Source of the DNA: an uncultured Clostridia bacterium
GTDB lineage: Bacteria; Bacillota; Clostridia; Christensenellales; UBA1242
Direction of reading: 5' to 3'
Length of the DNA stretch: 57,930 nt
Assembly: GCA_947591785.1 (NCBI GenBank)
Contig: CANQDK010000009.1
Coordinates: forward strand, 1 to 57,930
The first letter of the stretch is position 1; each line of letters opens with the position of its first letter. Positions 23,477 to 27,169 of the stretch are shown here, piece by piece. A program made the position numbers and the translations under genes. A model generated the notes under the pieces. That model saw only the letters and a list, made by a program, of their open reading frames with translations. It made no database searches and had not been told where the DNA came from.

Positions 23477-23935
23477 TCAAACTTCTATAACCAGTTTAAC
23501 ATTTGCAATTTTTTCTCTTTCAAATGTGATTTGTTCTTTTTCTGTTTTAAGAGTCAAGTCTTTTTCTGTGAAGGAAATCAAATTTCCAACATAAACTTTA
23601 TTTCCATTTTGTTTTGAGAAAAGAGTTACTTCAACTTTCTCATTCAAATGACGATTTAAATCACGATTTGTCTTTAGTGGTCTGTCCAATCCTGGTGAAG
23701 AAACCACCAAAGTGTAAGGTTTGTCATCTGTTGGATTTATCTCATCAAGAAGTGGGTCTATTTTTCTGCTTACAATTTCACAATCATCAATTGTCACCCC
23801 TTCATCTCTGTCTATTGTGAAAATAAGACTCATACCACCATTTTCTTTAACATATTCAACATCAACAAGTTCGTAGCCCATATCCTTTATGATGCCACCA
23901 AGTTTTTCTTCGCAAATTTGTTTAATTTTTGCCAT
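23477..23935 (-). CDS. rimP: Ribosome maturation factor RimP
   Basis: Promotes 30S assembly. 152 residues. GYELVDVEYVKENGGMSLIFTID is followed by VSSPGLDRPLKTNRDLNRHL, the family core. The ATG at 23935 follows GGAGGAG. The longer frame upstream runs through the leader hairpin and is not coding. It is the first gene of the rimP-nusA-ylxR-ylxQ-infB operon, with a strong promoter at 24014-24042. Confidence 0.95.
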   Translation of the reverse strand: MAKIKQICEEKLGGIIKDMGYELVDVEYVKENGGMSLIFTIDRDEGVTIDDCEIVSRKIDPLLDEINPTDDKPYTLVVSSPGLDRPLKTNRDLNRHLNEKVEVTLFSKQNGNKVYVGNLISFTEKDLTLKTEKEQITFEREKIANVKLVIEV

Positions 23936-23971
23936 AACTCCTCCACATCTTTTATCTTCCATATAAAGCAA

Positions 23972-23997
23972 CGAGGAGGCAAAATTTTGCCCCCTCG
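23972..23997 (-). promoter_or_regulatory. GC-rich hairpin in the rimP-nusA leader, candidate NusA-responsive attenuator
   Basis: CGAGGGGGCAAAA pairs with TTTTGCCTCCTCG (one mismatch, continuous stem) within the first transcribed bases of the operon. The following tract TTGCTTTATAT is only moderately T-rich, like weak terminators that need NusA. In Bacillus subtilis this operon is autoregulated by NusA-dependent termination in its leader. The arrangement here suggests the same. Confidence 0.5.
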
Positions 23998-24013
23998 CTA
24001 AGAAGTTATAGTT

Positions 24014-24042
24014 ATTATAACCCATAGAAATAAATTATGCAA
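24014..24042 (-). promoter_or_regulatory. Promoter of the rimP-nusA-infB operon
   Basis: Minus-strand TTGCAT and TATAAT are 17 bases apart. Predicted transcription starts near 24007, about 10 bases before the leader hairpin. Confidence 0.65.
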
Positions 24043-24207: not shown

Positions 24208-25902
24208 TTAAACTTCATTGAGCCTTAACAGAACTTGTGCTGTTGCATAAGCATCATTCCATGCACGATGTGCTCCTTCTAATGAAATTCCAAGAACCTT
24301 TGTGACTGTGCCCAAATTGAAATGTGAAATTTTTAATCTTGCCACACGAGCCTCATTTAGAGTGTCAATAATATCATTATCAAAGTCTAGCCCAAGTAAT
24401 GAAGCTTCTCGACGTATAAAATGAATATCAAAATCAAGAACATTATGTCCAGAAAGCACGCAACCTCTGGTAAATTCATAAAAATCACGAATAACAAGTT
24501 CAACTGGAGGTGCATCAGCCACCATATCATTTGTTATACCCGTTTTCTCTGAAACATCATAAGGAATTGGAATTGTTGGCTTAACAAACGACCAAAATTT
24601 TTCAACAATGTTTCCGTTTTCAATTTTAACAGCACCAATTTCAGTTATTTGAGATTTTTCACGATCAAGACCAGTCGTTTCAAGATCAAAAACAACAATT
24701 GTTTTTCCCATAATCTTGTTGTTATATTTATTTTTTCTTTCAAACATGCTGTTTTGTTCAAGAGCGGTTATTTTTTCAATTTGAACAACCCTGCCATATT
24801 CATCAATTTTAGGTTTATCTGATTTTTCTTGTGTTTGTTTAATTGGATTTGCAAGAGCAATTTTATCCACATAAAGTTGAAGTTTGCCAAGTTGATTTGT
24901 GCGAACATCACCATGCATAGCAACAAACATATTTTCTTCCAAGGCATCCATGTTTCTCTCATAGGTTTTAGGACAGAAATAGATTGCATCAAAACGACCA
25001 TTTTTAATGTCTTGTAGAGATATGTTATAAAAGGATTTTTGTTCACCAATTCTTTTCCCTTTTTTGATAACAAATTCCTTACGTTCAATTTTCCTGATAA
25101 AGCCTGCAATAGTCACATTAGTTTTTTCTGTGCGAATGTTACTGACAAATTCTGGATAAACCACCTTGTCTTTAATAATTTTTTCATCAACACCTGTATC
25201 TTCCAAATTCTCTTTTTCTTCTTTTGAATTGTCGTCTGAGTTTGTTTCTTCTTTCAATATTTTTTCTTCTTCAGCCTGTTTTTCCTTGCTTTTTTCTTTT
25301 TCTTCTTTAAGCCCTTTCACGATTGGAGTTCCAGCAACTGTTTTCAAAATTTCAACACTATATCTCTTTACAACTTGATATGTTGCTTTCATTTGCACAT
25401 TTTCAATGTCAACTTCATCAACAAGTGCAGAGTTTTCAACAGGAACGATAGTAAATTCGACAAGGAAATTTGATTTAAGATATTTTGCAAGCTCCCCTGC
25501 AATATCATGCTCTTTAAAAAGAATTTGAAGTCTTGGACTAAGTTCAATGCTTACACAAACATCAAGAGGACGAATTTCAATTTTTAAATTTTTTTCAGAC
25601 ATATAAGTGCTGACAAGCTTATATTTCTTCTCAAAAAATTCCAACACGGATTTTGTAATAAGTCTGCTCTCAACGAAAACCCTCATAAATTTCACTTTAA
25701 GTGACAATTTTTCAAGTGATAATTGCTCTTTAAGCCAATCAATAATTTCATTTTTTTGTTCAATAGAAAGTTCTGCATCTGTTGAAGGATATAAAAAAGT
25801 CACAACAAGAGAAGCCTCGTTTTTCTTCACAACCACACTTCTTAGGTTGAGATTTTGATACTTATCACCAAATTGGCGTTTAAAATCTTGTTCAAAATTC
25901 AT
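24208..25902 (-). CDS. PolC-derived protein: N-terminal, OB and exonuclease domains without PHP or polymerase
   Basis: 564 residues against about 1430 for PolC. Residues 1-190 resemble the PolC N-terminal region. 195-245 is a charged linker. About 255-350 is an OB-like domain (VTIAGFIRKIERKEF, MHGDVRTNQLGKLQLYVDKI). About 395-560 is a complete DEDDh proofreading exonuclease: FDLETTGL near 403, GHNVLDFDIHF near 480, HRAWNDAYAT near 542. Both halves of the PHP domain that flank the exonuclease in PolC are absent, as is the whole polymerase. The ORF ends cleanly a few residues after the exonuclease, and the following 160 bases are non-coding. It sits at the usual polC position, between rseP and rimP. 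Probably a 3'-5' exonuclease (inference). The ATG lies six bases after a -10 box with no ribosome binding site. Confidence 0.85.
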   Translation of the reverse strand: MNFEQDFKRQFGDKYQNLNLRSVVVKKNEASLVVTFLYPSTDAELSIEQKNEIIDWLKEQLSLEKLSLKVKFMRVFVESRLITKSVLEFFEKKYKLVSTYMSEKNLKIEIRPLDVCVSIELSPRLQILFKEHDIAGELAKYLKSNFLVEFTIVPVENSALVDEVDIENVQMKATYQVVKRYSVEILKTVAGTPIVKGLKEEKEKSKEKQAEEEKILKEETNSDDNSKEEKENLEDTGVDEKIIKDKVVYPEFVSNIRTEKTNVTIAGFIRKIERKEFVIKKGKRIGEQKSFYNISLQDIKNGRFDAIYFCPKTYERNMDALEENMFVAMHGDVRTNQLGKLQLYVDKIALANPIKQTQEKSDKPKIDEYGRVVQIEKITALEQNSMFERKNKYNNKIMGKTIVVFDLETTGLDREKSQITEIGAVKIENGNIVEKFWSFVKPTIPIPYDVSEKTGITNDMVADAPPVELVIRDFYEFTRGCVLSGHNVLDFDIHFIRREASLLGLDFDNDIIDTLNEARVARLKISHFNLGTVTKVLGISLEGAHRAWNDAYATAQVLLRLNEV

Positions 25903-25908
25903 ACTTTT

Positions 25909-25937
25909 ATTTTAAAAGAAAACTTGATTTTTGTCAA
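25909..25937 (-). promoter_or_regulatory. Promoter for a leaderless PolC-derived transcript
   Basis: Minus-strand TTGACA and TAAAAT are exactly 17 bases apart. TAAAAT ends six bases before the ATG at 25902, so the predicted transcript begins at or within a base or two of the start codon. Confidence 0.6.
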
Positions 25938-26008: not shown

Positions 26009-27169
26009 CTAAAGCACAAAATGTAAAATATCAACAATAACAACAAACCCAAGCAAAACACAAAGCCCAACAAAATGAATTGTGCTTTCAATCTTTCTGT
26101 CAATAGGCTTGCCACGAATCCATTCAATCAAAGTGAAAAGCACATGCGACCCATCTAGTGCTGGAAATGGCAAAATATTGAAGACAGCAAGGTTTGCCGC
26201 AATTAAAGGAATGAAAACCAAAATATAAGACATGCTTTGTTGTGCCATTGTCGCAATGGTTGAAATTGTTGCAATTGTTCCACCAACTTGTGAAATTGGA
26301 ATTTGGAAAGTGATAAGCATCCAAAGACTCTTCAAAACAACCCATGCAAAACCAAAAGCCATTTCAAAAGAACGACAAAAACCTTTCCATGCATTATAAA
26401 CATAAGCCTTTGTTGTTGGAGTTTCACCTTCATCAGATTCAAGTCCAGTGCGTGTGTTTAAGACATCTTTGCCATCATTTGAAACCATTTCTGGAAAAAC
26501 ATAAATTGTCAAGTTTTCTGTTTTTCCGCTTCTTCTTACAGTCATTTTAAAGGAATAAAGGTTTTCTGAAGGAATTTCGTCAACAGTTTTTCCTTCATCA
26601 ATAAAAGCCTGATATTCCTTTTTTGCTTTATTTCTCTCACTATTCACAAGATTGACATAATTTTCGCCAAAAGCAAAATCTATTTCTGTTCCGTTTATGT
26701 GAGTGATAACATCGCCTTTTTTAAATTCATTTACATACACTCCACCATCAGAAATAACATACTCCTGTCCAAAAGATATATCGCGAGTCAATTGAGGAAC
26801 ATCATAACCAATAGTTGAAAGAAGAATCCATGAAAATAAAATTGCTGTCAAGAAATTTGCAGTGACACCAGCAAAAAAGACAATTATTCTTTTCCATGGC
26901 TTTTGATTGTTGAAAGCGTTTTCGTCTTTAGTTTCTTTTTCATCATCTTCACCATAAAAAGCACAATAGCCACCAAGAGGAAAAGCTCGAAAAGAAAATT
27001 TCTCACCAGTTTTTTTGCTTGTTCGAGAAAAAAGTGCAGGACCAAATCCCACAGAGAACTCTGTTATTTTGAATTTTAGGATTTTCCCTGCAATATAATG
27101 CCCAAACTCATGAATAAGCACCATAAAGAGCAAAATCACAACAGCAAGCAAAATGTAAAGAACAATCAT
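26009..27169 (-). CDS. rseP: RIP metalloprotease RseP (site-2 protease)
   Basis: A membrane zinc protease that cuts substrates within the bilayer, typically anti-sigma factors and signal peptides. 386 residues. The active-site HEFGH is at residues 20-24 in the first membrane segment. A PDZ-like domain (about 125-235) contains KGDVITHING. The third-segment motif NILPFPALDG near 332 supplies the metal-binding Asp. The ATG follows AAAGGA. It is downstream of cdsA with dxr, often in between, absent here. Confidence 0.94.
   Translation of the reverse strand: MIVLYILLAVVILLFMVLIHEFGHYIAGKILKFKITEFSVGFGPALFSRTSKKTGEKFSFRAFPLGGYCAFYGEDDEKETKDENAFNNQKPWKRIIVFFAGVTANFLTAILFSWILLSTIGYDVPQLTRDISFGQEYVISDGGVYVNEFKKGDVITHINGTEIDFAFGENYVNLVNSERNKAKKEYQAFIDEGKTVDEIPSENLYSFKMTVRRSGKTENLTIYVFPEMVSNDGKDVLNTRTGLESDEGETPTTKAYVYNAWKGFCRSFEMAFGFAWVVLKSLWMLITFQIPISQVGGTIATISTIATMAQQSMSYILVFIPLIAANLAVFNILPFPALDGSHVLFTLIEWIRGKPIDRKIESTIHFVGLCVLLGFVVIVDILHFVL

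Follow-up and report, generated by a model that had tools for sequence, protein, structure and literature searches.

At the chromosomal position usually held by polC, an uncultured Clostridia bacterium carries a short gene, here called the stub, that keeps the front part of PolC and its DEDDh exonuclease and lacks both PHP halves and the polymerase core. Judging from sequence, we think it likely that the stub is PolC reduced to a clamp-tethered, epsilon-like proofreader of DnaE; exonuclease activity, binding to the sliding clamp and partnership with DnaE would all belong to this role. The gene lies in a 57,930-nucleotide stretch of DNA (the window). An earlier note, made from the letters of the window, had described its product as the N-terminal region of PolC, an OB fold and a complete DEDDh exonuclease at the polC locus, and our analysis confirms both the coordinates and the domains (Table 1).

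Table 1. Features of the stub gene and its surroundings in the window, with the loci of exonuclease-decayed stubs elsewhere in the order
Feature	Position	Strand	Remarks
PolC-derived stub gene	24208..25902	(-)	564 aa, ATG start, at the polC position
N-terminal domain (NTD) pair, PolC NTD-like (residues 1-160)	25423..25902	(-)	HHalign, AlphaFold model
Charged low-complexity linker (residues 196-248)	25159..25317	(-)	Sequence; low pLDDT at 223-243
OB fold (about residues 255-353)	24844..25140	(-)	Pfam PF01336, HHalign against PolC OB
Candidate sliding-clamp-binding motif QNSMF (residues 383-387)	24742..24756	(-)	In the linker replacing PHP-N
DEDDh 3'-5' exonuclease domain (residues 400-564; D406, E408, D492, H545, D550)	24211..24705	(-)
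Promoter-like site TTGACA-N17-TAAAAT	25909..25937	(-)	Ends 6 nt before the stub ATG; predicted leaderless transcript
rimP, downstream neighbour	23477..24025	(-)	Name from gene order and sequence; synteny
rseP, upstream neighbour	26009..27169	(-)	Name from gene order and sequence; synteny
Decayed-exonuclease stubs	L045/L212, L211, L215-L220, L242-L248		Families f17, f20, f29 genus g79

Pfam RNase_T matched residues 403-558 of the stub (E 1e-29), the PolC model headed the list of NCBIfam matches, and the stub was the sole match to TIGR00573 (dnaQ) in the window genome. The exonuclease is the last domain, and the open reading frame stops where it ends. PF01336 reached E 2.6e-5 and 24.5 bits, under its 27-bit cut-off, and the NTD had no Pfam match at E values up to 1. 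Profile-profile comparison with HHalign identified both regions: the OB fold of 47 stubs aligned with that of 57 PolCs at 98.6% (E 8e-16; reversed control, 0.6%), and the NTD of 47 stubs aligned with that of 55 PolCs at 95.2% over 138 columns (E 2.6e-8; one reversed and five shuffled controls, 0.0-0.1%). Between the OB fold and the exonuclease, PolCs of the same order have a recognizable PHP-N, whereas the stubs have a short linker that bears no similarity to the PHP-N profile (HHalign, 0.1%), just as the earlier note had read from the window. The window protein is longer than its 36 relatives in the genus (509-533 aa), and its linker at residues 196-248 is longer than theirs.

In an AlphaFold model, a prediction that the note had called for, the NTD forms two alpha/beta domains, which agrees with the cited sections of two surveys (PMC3919608, PMC12926913), where two PolC subdomains are described, and the C-terminal fold resembles the exonucleases of PolC and epsilon. 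A PDB fold search with the NTD alone returned KH-type ribosomal and NusA, BON and secretion-ring domains at middling scores; tau and the PolC NTD are both missing from these match lists, which is no evidence against the PolC identity of the NTD. The five catalytic residues, which the note had found intact in the window, are invariant across 25 aligned stubs, in which most of the invariant columns fall within the exonuclease. With the dead-exonuclease stubs described below set apart, a complete DEDDh set is present in 71 of 71 stubs of a wider alignment.

A search of the window genome with the PolC model matched the stub and one other frame, of 1,207 aa, which is DnaE. The note had raised two partners for the exonuclease, a separate DnaE and a PolC polymerase split off elsewhere: the DnaE is there, as a single gene, and the PolC-model search found neither a split-off polymerase nor a full-length PolC in the genome, an absence that is not absolute in an assembly of 16 contigs at 98% completeness. 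Each of 32 genomes tested has one DnaE above the model cut-off (spread over two contigs in G039). All nine PHP metal ligands are kept in 30 of 30 aligned DnaEs, so a second proofreader is likely and the stub may not be the only one; these ligands weaken the idea that it is the sole proofreader. The window DnaE has an internal clamp-type motif, QISFF, and the window genome encodes both DnaN and DnaX.

DnaEs of the stub clade (n = 18) are longer than those of the PolC clade (n = 11), with medians of 1,197 and 1,159 aa; they have insertions at residues 494-503 and around 1017-1030 of the window DnaE and fixed differences at 590 and 720. In the dnaX gene (L251:1142-2574, minus strand, contig C2), a stretch of nine A stands just ahead of the end of the 367-aa frame; a 101-aa ORF in which Pfam identifies nothing comes next, in another frame. 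Slippage on the A-run could perhaps yield a longer tau, as in Thermus. Given the 367-aa dnaX product, the stub NTD might stand in for a missing tau domain V, a reading to be weighed against the downstream 101-aa ORF.

The stub occurs in all 37 genomes of the genus that were searched, the window included, and the 36 relatives all share its short architecture. Because these are independent genomes, misassembly, which the note had named as a refuting condition, is excluded, and the relatives with the same domain set that it had proposed to look for exist, at a locus kept across families. We take the gene order to be rseP-stub-rimP-nusA-ylxR-ylxQ-infB, with names assigned from order and sequence. 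We examined 41 stub loci. In 30 of them the gene is flanked on its own strand by rseP upstream and rimP downstream, and in nine by one of the two; the remaining two are a 3-kb contig (L040) and a rearranged locus (L151). The PolC loci of the order (n = 11) have both neighbours in six cases, one in three and none in two. In other families (for example, L035 and L056) there is mostly room of about 1 kb, enough for one gene, presumably ispG, between rseP and the stub or PolC; this gap is missing in the genus of the window, where rseP directly adjoins the stub.

Across the order, stub and PolC largely replace one another. In a PolC-model table of 395 genomes with a completeness of 90% or more, PolC passes the cut-off in 120, and G080 and G090 have pieces of it that score just under; read by eye, the table has no PolC in families f1, f3, f6, f8, f9, f10, f14, f15, f17, f19, f20, f21, f25, f27 and f29. 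We searched 151 of these genomes with the stub profile and sorted the matches by hand. PolC bearers make up 57 of them and have no full-length stub among the matches listed, which reach to about E 3e-42, so that a very diverged stub could escape. The other 94 lack PolC: 89 have a stub (74 full-length, with E at most 4.6e-95, and 15 with a decayed exonuclease), four (G120, G131, G137 and G143) have weak matches that we did not count as stubs, and one (G071) has neither PolC nor stub. The weaker matches number 19, in f17, f20 and genus g79 of f29, and the 15 that were read are decayed-exonuclease stubs. Stubs occur in fifteen families, in three of which the exonuclease has partly or wholly decayed. 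The bacteria concerned are uncultured, with animal guts as the source of many, and their order is probably Christensenellales.

In a separate genome set, no stub match was found in G394, from the window's own family (f1), or in G314 (f11). Both G071 and G314 belong to the PolC-bearing f11 and lack a full PolC as well as a stub, through either incomplete assembly or a second loss of PolC. Four further f11 genomes (G129, G141, G153 and G184) have full-length PolC frames that match the stub exonuclease profile weakly; these PolCs perhaps have no working exonuclease. The best 80 of 579 candidate loci include 21 stubs of 504-595 aa, in metagenome-assembled genomes labelled Clostridia, Clostridiales or Thermoanaerobacterales, and some of these loci duplicate contigs of surveyed genomes, as L075 apparently does for G036. 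At the level of the phylum (398 genomes), the matches listed involve mainly the exonuclease part of the profile and lie mostly inside frames of PolC length. Two short proteins from this set, G730 (481 aa, profile positions 293-510) and G668 (471 aa, positions 341-511), were considered as stubs from outside the order and rejected, as the NTD and most of the OB fold were unmatched.

In a rooted DnaE tree of 41 rows, made by a quick method without bootstrap and after dropping 3 of 14 outgroup loci in which the pattern found no ORF, all 18 stub genomes group together (SH-aLRT 100); their clade sits within PolC-bearing families, beside f11 (support 91), and the outgroups bear PolC too. The exonuclease tree, from which two of the order's 11 PolCs were dropped for want of the DxET pattern, is weak: on it the stubs need two changes, and a single stub clade is not rejected (AU P = 0.42). 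Most simply, a single loss of the polymerase and both PHP halves would have taken place in the common ancestor of a large clade of the order.

The linker left where PHP-N would be carries a clamp-type motif, QNSMF in the window, the glutamine of which (Q383) is nearly invariant in the 25 aligned stubs. We scored the motif as Qxx[hydrophobic][F/L/M/W], and for the 71-stub count as Qxx[LIMFV][FLM], patterns looser than the QxxLF consensus given in the cited part of PMC12309361. Of the first 47 stubs, 46 have it in the linker, compared with a mean of 3.6 and a maximum of 9 over 500 shuffles; no PHP-N region among those of 57 PolCs contains it. Among the 71 DEDDh-complete stubs, 66 have it, with the endings LF (37), MF (16), IF (6), FL (3), IL (2) and FF (2); L043, L197, L204, L206 and L207 do not. 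QNSMF is a candidate for docking the stub onto the sliding clamp, a five-residue motif alone being weak evidence. That the motif was gained in the scar left by PHP-N, making the stub a new kind of clamp-tethered Pol III core subunit that in at least three lineages later turned into a catalytically dead part of the replisome, is a history that we favour by a small degree. The motif, the single origin across the clade and the decay of the exonuclease in three lineages were not foreseen in the earlier note.

We propose the following scheme. After polC lost its polymerase and both PHP halves, the remainder would have been kept as a separate proofreading subunit, with DnaE as the sole replicative polymerase left. 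The stub exonuclease would remove wrong 3' ends produced by DnaE, docked beside it on the sliding clamp by the linker peptide much as E. coli epsilon is by its own motif. For the other domains, holding single-stranded DNA (OB fold) and contact with the replisome (NTD pair) are the probable roles.

The scheme has precedents on two sides. With PolC, the stub shares the NTD pair, the OB fold and the DEDDh exonuclease, in the same order and at the same chromosomal locus. With epsilon (DnaQ) of E. coli Pol III it shares a separately encoded DEDDh exonuclease, an adjacent clamp-type motif and, presumably, DnaE as partner, but the two differ in origin and only the stub has an NTD and an OB fold. Epsilon also has, after its exonuclease, a C-terminal segment that binds alpha, and the stub has no such segment. 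According to the cited portion of PMC3642679, the motif by which epsilon attaches to the clamp is QTSMAF, next to the catalytic domain; this motif follows the exonuclease, whereas that of the stub precedes it. The clamp motif of PolC is placed at the C terminus in the part of PMC12309361 used here, and that of the stub lies between the OB fold and the exonuclease. In B. subtilis, as reported in the cited text of PMC5627055, PolC corrects DnaE errors in trans within a stable complex, which is the role proposed here for the stub; there, by the same text, PolC is complete with its polymerase and DnaE lacks an exonuclease, whereas in the stub clade the PolC polymerase is gone and the DnaE PHP ligands are kept. 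The stub looks like a natural end point of that arrangement. Bacteroidetes DnaE1 is likewise provided with a DEDDh exonuclease, at its N terminus, but by fusion, in what the cited section of PMC3919608 describes as an unrelated event, whereas the stub is separate.

A challenge to a proofreading role comes from the stubs that have lost their catalytic residues. The 15 that were read come from f17, from the larger part of f20 and from a single f29 genome (g79); all have lost DEDDh, with the NTD and OB fold still recognizable (the exonuclease of G176, in f20, is intact). Of eight such loci examined, seven have both neighbours in place. In these three lineages the stub is evidently dispensable as an exonuclease and may have a structural role, and its survival suggests that the NTD and OB fold have some use of their own. 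The stub might then be mainly a replisome scaffold or clamp-handling factor in which these domains are essential and the exonuclease is something that most lineages, but not all, retain; the intact PHP of DnaE would fit this too. We consider this unlikely. The 71 other aligned stubs all have complete catalytic sites, conservation is concentrated in the exonuclease, and the clamp-type motif disappears where catalysis does, being found at the aligned place in none of the 15 dead stubs (in G095 a loose match, QTSLL, lies further on, outside that place; those of f20 keep the glutamine, mostly as QxxFV, and those of f17 have no clear trace). That the two decay together argues for a motif in the service of the exonuclease, though the independent events number only about three.

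Less likely still is a general DNA-repair or RNA-processing exonuclease that has lost its tie to replication. DEDDh folds have many roles, and DinG, TREX1 and RNase T, which share this fold, are among the matches of the stub model, but such an enzyme would hardly be expected to retain a PolC-type NTD and OB fold, to be mutually exclusive with PolC, and to keep both the polC locus and a clamp-type motif. A decaying pseudogene or an assembly artefact, as a shortened gene in small metagenome-assembled genomes might suggest, has almost no probability, given that 74 of the 151 order genomes, from many families, encode all the domains in an open frame and that all 37 genus genomes have a stub. The preferred reading, in which a functional exonuclease derived from PolC serves a separately encoded DnaE, as the note had suggested, is consistent with the catalytic residues, the locus, the architecture, the complementarity with PolC and the single DnaE in each of the 32 genomes, its enzymatic function being what these features predict.

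Removal of the PolC polymerase, with the rest of the front half kept and the exonuclease intact in most of the fifteen families, suggests that DnaE can copy the genome alone and that the lasting contribution of PolC is correction. If this is true, the stub clade is a natural experiment on how much of PolC bacteria with both PolC and DnaE1 can do without; the cited part of PMC3919608 gives the respective roles of the two enzymes in such bacteria as unknown. PolC inhibitors should not act on stub-bearing bacteria. According to their cited sections, two surveys of bacterial polymerases (PMC3919608, PMC12926913) kept only sequences with a polymerase domain, a filter that would pass over the stub, and mention Clostridia with DnaE1 alone and not the stub; the second, from 2026, searched DnaQ-like exonucleases separately and, in the same sections, limited its assignments to close homologues of known DnaQ and to complexes modelled with confidence. 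Among open-access titles and the beginnings of abstracts, we found no description of such a protein.

The near-consensus promoter that the earlier note had claimed for the stub gene is a real match, at 11 of 12 consensus positions, in a region with no excess of promoter-like sites overall (12, compared with 9.6 in shuffles, s.d. 3.4). TTGACA-N17-TAnnnT lies 6 nt before the ATG throughout the genus (36 loci, L006-L034 and L048-L054; 8 nt in L025 and, with its start corrected, 7 nt in L011), a spacing that predicts a leaderless stub mRNA. Roughly half of the genus has the site overlapping the 3' end of rseP, the coding of which may partly explain its conservation there. Among 50 window ORFs, one other has anything similar, and its site is weaker.
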